From the IMG/VR virus record IMGVR_UViG_3300020188_000013, positions 1 through 49,172 of that record: a stretch of 49,172 bases of DNA. One strand, 5' to 3'. The stretch is from a virus. A program made the position numbers and the translations under genes. Of this stretch, positions 8,719-47,518 are shown one piece after another. The notes beneath the pieces were generated by a model, which ran no database searches, was not told where the DNA came from, and was given only the letters and a program-made list of their open reading frames with translations. The number at the start of each line of letters is the position of its first letter. The first letter of the stretch is position 1.

Positions 8719-10002
8719 TTAACCACCTATAATATCTTCAAGAATACTAGTAAATGCTGCACCTTGTAATGTTGGATCTACTCTGTAGTTATCAACAACT
8801 GCTTGTTGCAGTTGAGATTGCTGAACTGTGTTTAAGTTATCAAACAACTGTCCATTATCATTAAAAGAGTTTGCCGATCCTTGTGCTATTGCATAGTTTC
8901 GAAGTGCATTTCTAGCCAAGTCTCTTTGTTTAATAGTGCTAGTTCTCAACTCTCTCTCAGATATTTTTGGTTCTAACGCTGCATCAAGAAATGCTGTAGT
9001 TATAGCTGTTTGAGTTGAGTTTGTTGGAAAAAATGCATTGTTGTTGAACGGAACTCTATTATTTGTTGTAACTGGAGTAGTTGAAAATGTTGATCTTAGA
9101 TTGCGTTGTTGTTCGCTATTAAAATCAGTTATTCCTATTGCTTCTAAAAATATATCAGTGAATACTTTTTTCCAACCTTCGTCTACTCCGGTTGTTTTGT
9201 TATCCGTTGACTCTGTACTAGTACTACTATATGGACTAGGTGATCTATCATAGTGTGCATTGTCTGCAAACCCTGCTGGCTCATCTAATCCTGTATATCC
9301 TCTATCATACAGTACAGTTTCATAATCAACACGCATGGTGTTTTTCATTACGCCTGACCCATCTGATTGATCTACTCTATCATGTTGCCATTCTCCTATG
9401 AGAGGATTCACAAGTGTAAAACTAGTAAAATGACTATCAGTGTTTTGATGATGAAGTTGGTGTATAGTTATGCTGTTAAAAAATGGATATGTTTTGCCTG
9501 CTCTGTTAAAACCATGTCTATAAGTATTTTGAGGCTCGCTATCGTATAAGCCAGTTTGATATGCACGTGGACGAGTTCCTTGATCGGCATAGTTGCCGTC
9601 TTCATAATAATATCTATAATAGGCTTCCCATAGCAGTGTTGTTAGACCTGCTGCATCGTCATGAAATTCAATATTAACAGGATTGTAGTTTATTCTTGTT
9701 TGAACTACTTTTTTTCTATTGTATTGATTCATAGTTTCTGTATTAATAGTATATGTTGGCAAGTCAGCAGCTGATGCTAGTATATTAAACTCACGTTTGT
9801 TTAATAAGTTGCTAACATTGTTACCAAGTGATTGTAACGCTATTGGGTTTACATCTATTACAACATGATATAGGAATTTAACTTTAGGCGATAATCTAAA
9901 GTTATTGCGTCGATACAAGTTTGCAGCATGAGTAAAATCACCCATTATACCTTTGTTGGTATCAAAATTGCTAAAGTTATCAAAGTTTCTATTTAACGGC
10001 AT
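8719..10002 (-). CDS. Tail-tube-like structural protein (gp19/gp54-type domain)
   Basis: 427 residues. Residues about 38-110 (VKFLYHVVIDVNP, then AADLPTYTINTETMNQYNRKK and YNPVNIEFHDDAAG) follow the pattern of tail-tube proteins, in which a strand of the form YRFRVxLxxF is followed by a proline-containing strand and an inner-barrel strand. T4 gp48 and gp54, which start tube growth on the baseplate, share this fold, so a tube-initiator or baseplate role is plausible. Residues ~235-330 are Ser/Thr/Asn-rich. The C-terminal ~90 residues are helical and Gln-rich. The late octamer ends four bases before the ATG at 10002 and there is no ribosome site, so the mRNA is probably leaderless. First gene of the 10002-to-7350 operon. 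Confidence 0.62.
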   Translation of the reverse strand: MPLNRNFDNFSNFDTNKGIMGDFTHAANLYRRNNFRLSPKVKFLYHVVIDVNPIALQSLGNNVSNLLNKREFNILASAADLPTYTINTETMNQYNRKKVVQTRINYNPVNIEFHDDAAGLTTLLWEAYYRYYYEDGNYADQGTRPRAYQTGLYDSEPQNTYRHGFNRAGKTYPFFNSITIHQLHHQNTDSHFTSFTLVNPLIGEWQHDRVDQSDGSGVMKNTMRVDYETVLYDRGYTGLDEPAGFADNAHYDRSPSPYSSTSTESTDNKTTGVDEGWKKVFTDIFLEAIGITDFNSEQQRNLRSTFSTTPVTTNNRVPFNNNAFFPTNSTQTAITTAFLDAALEPKISERELRTSTIKQRDLARNALRNYAIAQGSANSFNDNGQLFDNLNTVQQSQLQQAVVDNYRVDPTLQGAAFTSILEDIIGG

Positions 10003-10006
10003 AAAG

Positions 10007-10014
10007 TATTTATC
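10007..10014 (-). promoter_or_regulatory. Late promoter octamer for the tube-like gene operon
   Basis: GATAAATA on the minus strand, four bases (CTTT) before the ATG at 10002. Confidence 0.65.
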
Positions 10015-10034
10015 TTATATTTAAACAGCGCACA

Positions 10035-10064
10035 TAACAAATAAGGAGCCCATTGGGCTCCTTA
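10035..10064 (-). terminator. Terminator after tail-tube gene 19
   Basis: A perfect 10-bp stem (10042-10051 with 10055-10064) has a three-base loop and is followed on the minus strand by a T-rich tail. It lies 26 bases after the gene 19 stop. Confidence 0.82.
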
Positions 10065-10090
10065 GAAGTCAAGCAATCTCTTAAATGTTA

Positions 10091-10729
10091 TTAAAGAGCG
10101 GCAGCGCCTGTGGCACCTGTGCCTGTTTCAGTATTTCGATCTTGGAAGTTGTTAGGCGTTCCAACACCTACATTAAGTTGTACAGCGTTGTCGTATTGAA
10201 TATTAAGAGCTACTGTCATTGCATCATTTGCTGAGTAACTCATTGATCCGTAGTCAACACTTGTTAAATAGCAACCATACAGTTCCCAAGTTTCAAGTAC
10301 AGCTGGAGTATTGGCGCCGTTGCCGCCGTCTAGTACTTCAATGCGTTGTGTAAACTTGTAGTCTTGTCCTGTAGCAGCACTAGACTGTTCAAAGAAATCA
10401 AACTGTTTCTGTAGTTGCTCGCCTACTGAACGTTGTACGTTTCCGTTAACATCGTCACGTAAATTCATTGTAACTGCTTGCCATTCGTGCTTGCCAGCCA
10501 TATAAATTTTACTATTGTACACATCAATCGGTATTTGTTGGAATGATATGTTTGGACGGGTTGCATCAATAACCTGTTTTGTTAATTCAGTTGTGTTGCC
10601 GGTAATACCGAAGTTTTCCAATGTTACACGGAAACGGTATTGTAGTTTCGGCATTAGCAGACCCTGACTGCTTGCACTAGTATCGTTTGCTAACGGTACT
10701 GTTAAATTTAATAGAGTTGAGATTGCCAT
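10091..10729 (-). CDS. 19: Tail tube protein gp19
   Basis: Subunit of the inner tube through which DNA is ejected. 212 residues (T4 has 163). The core strand LQYRFRVTLENFGI at about residues 29-42 is followed by ATRPNISFQQIPIDVYNSKIY and by the WQAVTMNLRDDV strand and loop. A later strand carries WELYGCYLTSVDYGSMSYSAND and the C-terminal strand is AMTVALNIQYDNAVQ. This is the standard gp19 beta-barrel order. The last ~25 residues are Gly/Thr/Ala-rich and probably disordered. The start has a clear ribosome site (AAGGAGA) about 10 bases upstream. Its own late promoter (10752-10759) and terminator make it a single-gene unit, as suits a highly produced protein. Confidence 0.92.
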   Translation of the reverse strand: MAISTLLNLTVPLANDTSASSQGLLMPKLQYRFRVTLENFGITGNTTELTKQVIDATRPNISFQQIPIDVYNSKIYMAGKHEWQAVTMNLRDDVNGNVQRSVGEQLQKQFDFFEQSSAATGQDYKFTQRIEVLDGGNGANTPAVLETWELYGCYLTSVDYGSMSYSANDAMTVALNIQYDNAVQLNVGVGTPNNFQDRNTETGTGATGAAAL

Positions 10730-45256: not shown

Positions 45257-45658
45257 TTAAACTGCTGTTAATACAATGTAATCGTTTGTCGAATCGTTTT
45301 CTAATGCCCAAGTATATCTATTACCCGAGAAGTCAGTAGCAACACGTTTTGTGATTTTTGCAAGATTAACTTCGGCGCCTGAGTTTGAATCTACACGGCC
45401 GAACATGCGCATTTCGCCTAATGCACTTGGTGTACCATTTTTAAGAACACAAGTTGTTGTACTTGTTGAATCTTTAATGTTCGGCGAACCTACGTTTGCA
45501 TCTTGTGTACAAACAAAAGTTTTTGCTCCACGCTGCTTAACTATAGCACCGTCTGTTCTTAATGATGCATCGTAGAATTCTACTCTTACACCAGTGTTGC
45601 CATCAGCATCGCCGATAACATCAACACCGTTAATATCTTTTTTTAGTGGACGTCCCAT
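45257..45658 (-). CDS. Small conserved virion-type protein (MGRPL start)
   Basis: 133 residues. The start MGRPLKKDINGVDVIGDADG and the later KQRGAKTFVCTQ and GEMRMFGRVDS strands suggest a beta-rich structural protein. From memory, small proteins beginning MGRPL occur beside fibre genes in marine T4-like phages. AAGGAGA precedes the ATG at 45658. First gene of the fibre operon, after a late promoter about 86 bases upstream. Exact role unknown. Confidence 0.75.
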   Translation of the reverse strand: MGRPLKKDINGVDVIGDADGNTGVRVEFYDASLRTDGAIVKQRGAKTFVCTQDANVGSPNIKDSTSTTTCVLKNGTPSALGEMRMFGRVDSNSGAEVNLAKITKRVATDFSGNRYTWALENDSTNDYIVLTAV

Positions 45659-45744
45659 TTTGTTTCTCCTTATGACGTTCTAGGTCTACACAGATGGTAT
45701 TCTGCGTAAGTCCAGTTTTTCTGGCTCTTTTATACCTACACAAG

Positions 45745-45752
45745 TATTTATC
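45745..45752 (-). promoter_or_regulatory. Late promoter octamer for the fibre operon
   Basis: GATAAATA on the minus strand, after the terminator of the putative RNA gene and before the 45658 start. It would drive four genes down to the terminator at 34396. Confidence 0.68.
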
Positions 45753-45782: not shown

Positions 45783-45816
45783 AAAAAAAGGCCTACCGCA
45801 TCAGTGGGTAGACCTT
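45783..45816 (-). terminator. Terminator of the putative non-coding RNA
   Basis: A 10-bp stem with one G-U pair (45788-45797 with 45807-45816), a nine-base loop and a run of seven T on the minus strand. Confidence 0.88.
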
Positions 45817-46034
45817 CTCTATTAATATTGATAGGGAGGATTACATTCTACCTCCAACAACCTAGTAAGTATTTTATACATTCGGTTGCGCCTAGTATCA
45901 GATAGTTATATCCAAAATACGCATCTTCATGTCTCCATGCTCATACGCTGCCACTACAGCTACTAGCCAAGTTATCGTCCTTACGAAACAACATTTCCTT
46001 GCACTATCTAACTAAAGACCGTCGTCTTTGTTAT
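45783..46034 (-). ncRNA. Putative structured non-coding RNA, about 250 nt
   Basis: A self-contained transcription unit with a sigma70-like promoter (46041-46068), no convincing ORF, several hairpins and a strong terminator. Hairpins in the minus-strand RNA: AAAGAC/GTCTTT at 46014-46029, near the 5' end. A long-range 9-bp helix pairs 46001-46009 region bases (UUAGAUAGU) with ACUAUCUGA near 45898-45906. A CAACC/GGTTG stem near 45860-45890 encloses GTAT/ATAC. A GGAGG/CCTCC hairpin lies near 45835-45855, followed by the terminator. The largest ORF with a plausible ribosome site is about 15 codons. The transcript start is estimated from the -10 box. It could instead be a long leader that ends early, or encode tiny peptides. 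It matches no RNA family I recognise and is not a tRNA. Confidence 0.55.
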
Positions 46035-46040
46035 GTAACT

Positions 46041-46068
46041 AATATAACATATAAAAAAAGAAAGTCAA
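46041..46068 (-). promoter_or_regulatory. Sigma70-like promoter of the putative RNA gene
   Basis: TTGACT (46063-46068), a 16-base T-rich spacer and TATATT (46041-46046) on the minus strand. The -35 box contains the TGA stop of the cold-shock-like gene. Confidence 0.68.
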
Positions 46069-46271
46069 CCAGTTTTTTCTATTTTTCTAAGATTTGATGC
46101 ATATTTTTTTCCATTTGATAATATTTCGTCGTATTCAACTACATCACCTAATAATGCTTTAAAATCTTTTGTTTCAAAAAGAACATCGTACAATTCCGGA
46201 CCCCATTCTTTAGGTCTTATTATACTATACTTTCTTTTTTTGTTGTATTTTATTATTTGTCCTATTGGCAT
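46065..46271 (-). CDS. Small cold-shock-like (OB-fold) protein
   Basis: 68 residues, the size of CspA-type proteins (about 70). The order fits a divergent cold-shock domain. GQIIKYNKKRKYSIIRP corresponds to the G-x-V-K-W-F-N...G-Y-G-F-I-x-P strands. DVLFET matches the position of the second RNA-binding motif (VFVH). GDVVEYDE and KYASNLRKIEK match the G-x-x-V-x-F and A-x-N-V end. Key aromatics of the RNA-binding motifs are changed (K-Y-S-I-I and V-L-F-E), so nucleic-acid binding may differ. GGAG precedes the ATG at 46271. It sits between the gene 23 terminator and the RNA-gene promoter. Moderate confidence in the fold, low in the function. Confidence 0.65.
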   Translation of the reverse strand: MPIGQIIKYNKKRKYSIIRPKEWGPELYDVLFETKDFKALLGDVVEYDEILSNGKKYASNLRKIEKTG

Positions 46272-46348: not shown

Positions 46349-47518
46349 TTACGAGAAGCTTAGGTTGTTTGCAGTTACTTCTACTTTTTCCAAGTAGTCA
46401 GCTGCGTTACCTAGAGACGAAGCAGTGTTCGATAGCTCAACATATCCATAACGTGTCATGAACGAAACTGTTGGTTCGAATGTACTTGGATCTAGGACAA
46501 CACCTGAAGACATAAGTGGGATGTATGGGCAATAGAATGCTGCTGCATCTGATTCACTTGTACCTTTGTAACCAACTAATACATCATCATCTGATGCATA
46601 TGTGTTTACATAGATCTTCATTGCGTTGTTCAATGTACCAACCATTTTAGTGTTAGTTGGTGCTTCAAAAGTACCTTCAGTTGTACGTGCAAATGCTGAA
46701 GTTGTAGCACTTTGTAGAACTGTTAGGATTGCTGGTGATACAACTGCCCAGTTACCTGCGCCACGACGTGTACGCTGTGCGATGCGGTTAGCTGCACGGT
46801 TAACTAGTACTGCAAGTGCAGCATGTTCGTCACCAACAAAAGTTGCTGTACCACTAACTGCTGCTTGGTCAAATGTATCTGTACCTGTACCAGCTAGTGT
46901 GTTAAGAGATGCTAGGACCTCTTGGTCGATCTCAGCAGTAATCTCTTGAGCAAGTGCTGCCATGATTTCTGCTTCAACGTCGATGCCGTGCTGCGACTGT
47001 GCGTCTTGTGCGGCTTCGAATGTCCAACGTGCTGATAGCTTACGTGTTTTAGCTTCAACAGTTTGCTTTAAGATTTGAATTGACAAACGGTTACCCGCTG
47101 CGCCTTCAAGTGAAGCTGTTGGTGCTGGTGCATTTGTACCGTCACCTGAATATGCTTCAGCAATCTTAAATGGACTTAGTGCTTCTTCACCAGCTATTGC
47201 ACCGCTTGCGCCTGTGCCTACTGTGTCGCTATAGCGAACACGTAGCGTGTGAATCTGGCCAACTGGGCCAGTCATTGGTTGTACGCCTACAATCTCGTTT
47301 GCGATGACTGTTGGCATAACACGTCTGATCACTGGAAGGATCACACGGTTTAGTGTTGCGATGTTACCGGCAGATGTAGCACCCGCAGTTGCAGTTTCAG
47401 CCAAATACCTACGGGTATTTTCTAGGGTTGAAGCCATTACTGCTTTCTTATTGCCTTGAAGGCCTTCAAGAAGTGCTGACTTGGTATCATTCCAACGACT
47501 TTCTAGTAGTTCTGACAT
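46349..47518 (-). CDS. 23: Major capsid protein gp23
   Basis: Forms the head shell. 389 residues, against 521 in T4. The conserved start region (LLESRWND, then STLENTRRYLAE) precedes the shell core: VILPVIRRVMPTVIANEIVGVQPMTGPVGQIHTLRVRY, and later WTFEAAQDAQSQHGIDVEAEIMAAL. RRGAGNWAVVSPAILTVLQ and FYCPYIPLMSSGVVLDPSTFEP follow, close to the T4 pattern. The sequence L39-A40-E41 fits the L/I-x-E cleavage rule of the prohead protease, so maturation may remove about 41 residues (T4 removes 65). A strong ribosome site AAGGAGA is present. It follows gene 22, with no separate late promoter seen, and ends at a strong terminator. Confidence 0.97.
   Translation of the reverse strand: MSELLESRWNDTKSALLEGLQGNKKAVMASTLENTRRYLAETATAGATSAGNIATLNRVILPVIRRVMPTVIANEIVGVQPMTGPVGQIHTLRVRYSDTVGTGASGAIAGEEALSPFKIAEAYSGDGTNAPAPTASLEGAAGNRLSIQILKQTVEAKTRKLSARWTFEAAQDAQSQHGIDVEAEIMAALAQEITAEIDQEVLASLNTLAGTGTDTFDQAAVSGTATFVGDEHAALAVLVNRAANRIAQRTRRGAGNWAVVSPAILTVLQSATTSAFARTTEGTFEAPTNTKMVGTLNNAMKIYVNTYASDDDVLVGYKGTSESDAAAFYCPYIPLMSSGVVLDPSTFEPTVSFMTRYGYVELSNTASSLGNAADYLEKVEVTANNLSFS

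Follow-up and report, generated by a model that had tools for sequence, protein, structure and literature searches.

A divergent manA RNA with its own promoter and terminator behind a phage capsid gene: a candidate free-standing RNA

The window analysed here, a stretch of 49,172 nucleotides covering positions 1 to 49,172 of the IMG/VR virus record IMGVR_UViG_3300020188_000013, contains a segment that reads on the minus strand, from 46068 to 45783, as a TTGACT-16-TATATT promoter, then about 250 nt of folded sequence in which no ORF is conserved, and finally a strong intrinsic terminator. Which RNA is encoded here, and does it act on the gene behind it or independently of it? An earlier note on this DNA had proposed a structured RNA gene that stands alone between the capsid and fibre modules, bounded by a promoter and a terminator. 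This proposal was supported by our analysis: both signals were confirmed (Table 1), the promoter is of sigma-70 type, and the gene lies between the capsid gene g23 and downstream structural genes. The gene order in the window is g23, a small ORF, the promoter, the RNA (a manA RNA, see below), the terminator, the late-promoter-like GATAAATAC, a freshwater-2 leader and a structural gene. The terminator stem, AAGGTCTACC...GGTAGGCCTT, has 10 pairs, one of them G-U, and a loop of 9, and is followed by a run of T; it was not listed by the tool scan, probably because the loop limit of that scan is 8. ARAGORN found neither tRNA nor tmRNA in the window, and Rfam likewise gave no match to either.

Table 1. 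Positions of the features discussed, in window coordinates unless a locus is named.
Feature	Position	Strand	Remark
g23 capsid protein	46349-47518	-	Nearest named phages are Sinorhizobium phage Phosso and Vibrio phage 2.275.O (~71%), not cyanophages
68-aa ORF before the RNA	46065-46271	-	Overlaps the promoter's -35 box with its stop codon
Sigma-70-type promoter TTGACT-16-TATATT, extended -10 (TG)	46041..46068	-	RNA start predicted near 46034
5' hairpin AAAGAC / GTCTTT, GACG tetraloop	46014..46029	-	manA model match begins here
manA-type RNA core	45829..46009	-	Model R1 positions 1-182; 134.1 bits with R1, the window being one of R1's own 53 sequences
P1 5' strand GATAG	46004..46008	-	Pairs with CTATC, closing the entire core
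P2 5' strand CAAG	45998..46001	-	Pairs with CTTG at 45971-45968; 100% paired
P2 3' strand CTTG	45968..45971	-	Pairs with CAAG
P3 5' strand CTAG	45963..45966	-	With 45895-45892 closes the inner junction
P3 3' strand CTAG	45892..45895	-	Pairs with 45966-45963
P5 5' strand GGAGG	45851..45855	-	Two of five pairs covary (second and third)
P5 3' strand CCTCC	45835..45839	-	Pairs with GGAGG
P1 3' strand CTATC	45830..45834	-	Pairs with GATAG
Intrinsic terminator, stem-loop and T-run	45783..45816	-	-14.8 kcal/mol; mean pairing probability 0.96 within the whole RNA
Late-promoter-like GATAAATAC of the next transcription unit	45744..45752	-	Outside the RNA gene
freshwater-2 RNA (RF02980)	45656..45726	-	43.7 bits, E 2.9e-5; cut-off 49.9
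Glutamine riboswitch aptamer (RF01739), L008	4236-4282		Rfam
Glutamine riboswitch aptamer (RF01739), L018	4234-4281		Rfam
Glutamine riboswitch aptamer (RF01739), L043	3972-4021	+	Rfam
Glutamine riboswitch aptamer (RF01739), L083	2861-2812	-	Rfam

The small ORF in front of the RNA had been taken for a cold-shock-like protein gene, a label left unsupported, as its 68 residues gave no match in Pfam (E up to 0.05) or PHROGs (E up to 0.001). On the other side, the freshwater-2 RNA lies directly downstream, yet it forms a separate 5' leader for the MGRP... structural gene and has a late-promoter-like site of its own in front; its cut-off was reached in 8 of 20 related loci searched. Over the whole window ATAAATAC was not enriched (4 on the minus strand vs. 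3.1 expected), and late-promoter-like words were enriched across relatives only at this position.

At gathering thresholds Rfam gave no match in the window, and to that extent the scan recommended in the earlier note was silent. A permissive search of the short region, however, matched the segment to manA RNA (RF01745) over model positions 1-192 of 192 (window 45825-46029, 47.8 bits, E 4.7e-11), the window copy missing the Rfam gathering score of 55.2. The RF01745 cut-off was reached by 2 of the 20 loci of one set (L028, 60.4; L043, 55.5), by 3 of 15 in a second (L147, 75.4; L200, 69.2; L083, 57.9) and by 7 of 11 in a third (L174, L092, L117, L118, L122, L173, and L131), as well as by 5/20 records in one set and 6/14 in another, the latter including nine named phages. 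Detection also worked in the opposite direction: R1, the covariance model of the window's group, found the manA RNAs of P-SSM4 (32.3 bits, E 3e-7) and P-SSM2 (27.2 bits, E 1e-5) at the same places where RF01745 scores 184 and 182 bits, and among the nine named phages searched its matches were P-SSM4, P-SSM2, and Mosig. HTVC008M was weak with both models (RF01745, 25.9 bits; R1, 14.7 bits, E 0.003, unreported in the nine-phage R1 search). Because of the full-length RF01745 match, the relatives over the cut-off and the detection of the P-SSM4 and P-SSM2 RNAs by R1, we filed the segment in the manA homology family. The statement that it belongs to no known RNA family is thus refuted; judged by homology, it belongs to the manA RNA family as a divergent member, the window copy scoring below the curated value. 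It shares with manA RNA the full-length match, the model's helices in order and the detection in both directions. Differences are found in P1, which reads GATAG/CTATC in the window and GGGAG/CTCCC in P-SSM4, in P2, which reads CAAG/CTTG in the window, and in the setting, a stand-alone unit with terminator as opposed to the Rfam type of the family, Cis-reg. With blastn the region gave only short matches to named phages, in 14 records and over at most 8% of the query.

Relatives were taken from loci next to g23, namely the best 80 of 599 IMG/VR relatives, and from further loci among the matches listed for the motif GTGCAAGGAA-N8..36-AACTTG. Of 119 such motif loci (L082-L200), 100 were used; 18 lay on contigs already represented by a g23 locus, and L199 was also left out. 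R1 was built from a sequence-only alignment, A2, of 53 distinct RNAs, which remained from 56 sequences (two motifs) after removal of near-identical ones. With R1 the RNA was found, always at 62 bits or more, in at least 26 of the best 80 of 599 g23 loci and in the window itself, a lower bound because many loci are short or cut off, and in 58 of the 100 motif loci among the matches listed. It is common but not universal, since it was not found in 6 of 10 larger records searched (contigs of 63-186 kb). Pelagibacter phage Mosig carries an unannotated copy (R1, 156.5 bits). A pattern scan of bacterial genomes gave, among 80 loci listed, 6 with an R1 E-value of 0.1 or lower and a best score of 22.5 bits; these were not counted as members because they had been preselected by part of the motif. 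For counts of the genomic setting, 76 full-length R1 hits were reduced to 72 by removing duplicates; these counts do not include L001, which is almost identical to the window, L136 (on the same contig as L075), the incomplete hits L019, L039, L040, L145, L161, L172, and L183, or hits below 21 bits.

The 252-nt transcript had a predicted folding energy of -74.8 kcal/mol, terminator included, with a z-score of -3.88 against dinucleotide shuffles, none of 200 being as good. In alignment A2 the consensus comprises 27 pairs in seven helices, with 95.9% of cells paired vs. 73.8% in shuffles. The compensatory changes for which the earlier note had advised a search across relatives are abundant: 303 cells were changed on both sides, compared to 96 in shuffles, and the covariation score was 0.579 vs. 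0.153 (slid controls, 0.058-0.102). Two-sided changes occurred in 20 of the 27 pairs, counted on R1's own consensus. P1 has four consensus pairs, five in the window; the four are kept in 100% of cells, with AU, GC, and UA types at the outermost pair. P2 is doubly changed to CATC/GATG in L043, and P3 shows two-sided changes at all four pairs. P5 reads GTAGG/CCTAC, GTGGG/CCCAC, GTTGG/CCAAC and others among relatives; GGAGG itself is not conserved, because the second and third pairs covary. The idea that a GGAGG/CCTCC hairpin hides or mimics a ribosome site therefore fails: the stem is P5, it covaries away from this sequence, and mimicry is excluded as a conserved feature. Nor was the 9-bp long-range pairing seen, either in the 252-nt fold or in the consensus, where the closing helix is P1 with its 4-5 pairs. 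The GACG loop of the 5' hairpin is present in 33 of 71 relatives; we gave this hairpin little weight, because the 5' stretch folded better than 95% of its own shuffles in only 31 of 71.

The absence of a convincing ORF from these ~250 bases was borne out. A search for a conserved small ORF in the 53 rows gave no start/stop pair common to more than 6 of them in sense (12/53 in antisense), and a peptide-coding reading was rejected as no ORF is widely shared. The lengths of the relatives are spread over all three classes modulo 3.

Taken alone, a promoter site of the kind seen in the window is at chance level in the region (12 found vs. 11.2 expected). It is convincing not by its own score but because relatives share it: a sigma-70-type promoter at similar distance was found in 58 of 71 relatives (L185 has no upstream DNA) and in 70 of 1440 random stretches, counting sites with at least 9 of 12 letters, plus half a point for an extended -10, that end 24-42 nt before the core. 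Outside eight loci in tRNA/tmRNA arrays the proportion was 58/63. Two of the five promoterless relatives there, L092 and L174, have a tmRNA directly upstream; the promoterless L153 and L176 gave no tmRNA match.

The 3' side was more varied. A terminator lay within 60 nt of the core in 33/72 relatives and within 110 nt in 35/72 (controls, 9/288), while none was found within 60 nt in 39/72. Where present, it was predicted to form with a probability above 0.9 in 32 of 33 cases; its 5' arm paired upstream (>0.2) in only one of the 33, the other 32 having no competing pairing by folding prediction. The late-promoter-like word [TGA]ATAAATA followed within 100 nt in 42 of 71 relatives vs. 36 of 1420 controls, and was not seen in 29/71. 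Among 22 pairs with a core identity of at least 0.93, nine had 3' flanks with an identity of 0.70 or lower, no more alike than those of dissimilar-core control pairs (median 0.58, 5-95% range 0.50-0.70); the flanks of the remaining 13 were more alike than this range. L003 and L102, for instance, have a core identity of 1.00 and a flank identity of 0.58, and L196 and L194 values of 0.96 and 0.48, a terminator being found in one of the latter two and none in the other. No terminator was found within 60 nt in nine relatives whose next gene begins within 30 nt of the RNA (L111, L200, L092, L176, L158, L101, L117, L118, and L173). The window RNA does not lie in the 5' UTR of the next gene, as terminator, late-promoter-like site and freshwater-2 leader intervene; in relatives the situation is mixed.

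The genes downstream of the relatives vary in kind. Nine relatives precede a gp32-type gene whose protein starts with MNTSIAALKR (the L093 copy belongs to the PHROGs ssDNA-binding family, E 9e-115), and each of the nine has a TATAAATA-like or TAAATAAT site 4-11 nt behind the RNA core. In Mosig the RNA is followed first by rubrerythrin and next by an ssDNA-binding protein. In L082, L106, and L104 the downstream gene opens with MKQKTIVLVTGGFDPIHSGH; the L082 copy (11576-10773, minus strand) matches a heptose kinase/adenylyltransferase family.

A tRNA or tmRNA was found within 60 nt of the RNA in 10 of 72 relatives. In L025 and L033 a tRNA-Gly follows 10 nt behind; L122 has a tRNA-Met before the RNA and a tRNA-Gly 10 nt behind it, L117 and L131 have a tRNA-Met before it, and L180 a tRNA-Gly. 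L149 (9447-8620, minus strand) combines a GOLLD RNA about 120 nt before the core, the manA-type RNA and a tRNA-Met 10 nt behind in one tRNA array. A tmRNA stands 9-12 nt before the RNA in L200 (5282-5830, plus), L092 (8720-8176, minus), and L174 (85-870, plus), each matched by the Rfam permuted and alpha tmRNA models. The link between manA and tRNAs is itself not new, as the passage on manA in PMC3692125 already notes from Rfam that it is often adjacent to tRNAs. In S-CREM1, according to Table 4 of PMC9964418, wcaG, manA, and abiF RNAs stand in a row on one strand (9745-10567, about 800 bases). Glutamine riboswitch aptamers (RF01739) precede the manA RNA by no more than a few hundred bases in four loci (Table 1).

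Two known systems invite comparison. GOLLD RNA (RF02032) is likewise a structured RNA in phage tRNA regions; unlike the RNA studied here it spans 416 model positions, forms a separate family and was a neighbour in one locus only (L149). RNAC and RNAD of T4 are small stable phage RNAs adjoining the tRNA genes of a T4-like phage. Homology to them was looked for and not found: across T4 70500-73500, the tRNA region, R1 scored at most 3.6 bits (E 3.4), a chance match. The relevant part of PMC9697503 classes RNAC and RNAD as late RNAs, whereas the window RNA has an early-type promoter, and still called their functions unknown in 2022; according to the section on small RNAs in a T4 review (PMC3014915), what RNAC and RNAD do is unknown, and functional characterisation is lacking for every small trans-acting RNA of T4.

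The cyanophage manA RNAs show a similar setting. With the P-SSM4 RNA, blastn found 37 phage records, a number that counts certain phages more than once; RF01745 was over its cut-off in 6 of 11 named T4-like records of one set and in 3 of 9 of the other (P-SSM4, P-SSM2, and Mosig). A promoter matching 11-12 of 12 consensus letters precedes each of the 10 cyanophage copies examined, two scans differing for P-HM1 (a 19-nt spacer in one, 10 of 12 letters with a 16-nt spacer in the other). The RNA lies directly behind g23 in P-HM1 and P-RSM4 (by annotation) and S-SSM5 (by tblastn) and directly before gp32 in P-HM2, places shared by cyanophages and the window's relatives despite a g23 protein identity of only about 31-39%. 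In P-TIM68 the next gene is on the opposite strand, and in S-SSM7 a tRNA-Gly directly follows. Terminator-like sites come after the RNA in P-HM1 and P-SSM7; in P-SSM2, P-RSM4, and P-HM2 a T-run stands closely behind P1, so that P5 and P1 could themselves terminate transcription. A cis or leader role may apply in P-SSM2 and P-RSM6, where purL starts 16 nt and transaldolase about 20 nt after the RNA, respectively.

Upstream of the RNA in P-RSM4 and P-HM1, the manA promoter has its -35 box inside a terminator-like hairpin that follows g23 (L372, L368, L352). In P-RSM4 this compact terminator-promoter overlap reads GAGGGTGCTTGACACCCTC followed by a T-run, and P-SSM2 looks similar. Two GenBank entries, PSSM4_169.1 (P-SSM4 164884-165057) and PHM1_121 (P-HM1 112705-112881), overlap manA RNAs, and these hypothetical proteins are probably spurious.

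The published label of the family is a different one. Weinberg et al. (2010; PMC2864571) list manA, from marine and cyanophage DNA, as cis-regulatory ("Y") and as a riboswitch ("y"), and their entry places it in potential 5' UTRs of mannose/fructose, nucleotide, ibpA, and photosynthesis genes. Assignment to 5' UTRs persists in the manA passages of PMC9964418 and PMC7657543; the former, the S-CREM1 paper, repeats the cis-regulatory label and says that the role awaits verification. In PMC7657543 and PMC3023696 the passages concerned use manA as a folding or drawing example and say nothing on function. In these and the other literature passages on manA we met no ligand, and in the open literature, mostly at the level of abstracts, we found no proposal of manA as a stand-alone or trans-acting RNA.

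Whether the RNA acts in cis or in trans is not discriminated by the promoter, because one would also be expected for a 5'-UTR switch. The 3' side, unlike the promoter, does discriminate, because of the terminators without competing pairing, the unlike flanks and the separate downstream units. On these grounds we consider it reasonably probable that this divergent manA RNA is made as a free-standing transcript of about 250 nt, which would be non-coding and act in trans. A cis-acting riboswitch or leader, folding in the 5' UTR to detect a ligand and using the terminator as expression platform for the downstream structural gene, would agree with the Rfam type, with the listing as a riboswitch candidate (PMC2864571) and with the gene start within 30 nt in 9 of 72 relatives. 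It is nevertheless unlikely, given that in the window a terminator, a late-promoter-like site and a distinct freshwater-2 leader come between the RNA and the next gene, that the terminator arm is without upstream pairing in 32/33, that like cores carry unlike 3' flanks in 9/22 pairs, and that relatives sit within tRNA arrays, after a tmRNA or ahead of a gene on the opposite strand; the folding results and the unlike flanks weaken an attenuator reading as well. That the unit stands alone in every case is made doubtful by the nine relatives in which a gene begins within 30 nt and a terminator was not found.

An RNA of dual use, abundant and terminated for action in trans while read-through in some phages makes it also a leader of the gene that follows (gp32, purL, rubrerythrin), would account for its position before gp32 in P-HM2, before rubrerythrin and then an ssDNA-binding protein in Mosig, and before the gp32-type gene in nine relatives. 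Yet the site 4-11 nt behind the core in all nine would make the leader optional, and the downstream genes are varied; we regard this as decidedly unlikely. That the segment encodes a peptide, or lies by chance between promoter-like and terminator-like sites, is hardly credible: short ORFs exist, and GenBank annotates some over manA RNAs (PSSM4_169.1, PHM1_121), but no ORF is shared, the helices covary and the family match is full-length.

If the RNA is free-standing, it would be an early transcript of the host's sigma-70 RNA polymerase, its closed multi-helix core (P1-P5) would shield it from decay, like tRNA and tmRNA, and it would act in trans via this folded core and not by switching the gene behind. 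The site of action that we favour, a guess from genomic company, is the phage take-over of translation or of stable-RNA metabolism, because relatives stand head to tail with tRNA, tmRNA, and GOLLD genes.

What is new is the setting, with its own promoter and terminator; the result is less a new family than a re-reading of the orphan manA. This setting, together with that in other phages, suggests on sequence grounds that manA is a free-standing phage RNA rather than a switch on an mRNA. More tentatively, and short of calling it probable, we propose that marine T4-like phages may carry the manA RNAs, as a family, not as riboswitches but as stable RNA genes that stand on their own. They would form a cassette transcribed early from sigma-70 promoters that recurs at favoured sites (after g23, ahead of gp32, and within tRNA/tmRNA/GOLLD arrays), and would act in trans when the phage takes over the translation or RNA machinery of its host. 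If manA is a free-standing trans RNA, the hunt for a regulated downstream gene would be misdirected, and marine T4-like phages would carry a conserved stable RNA comparable with T4 RNAC/RNAD and GOLLD.
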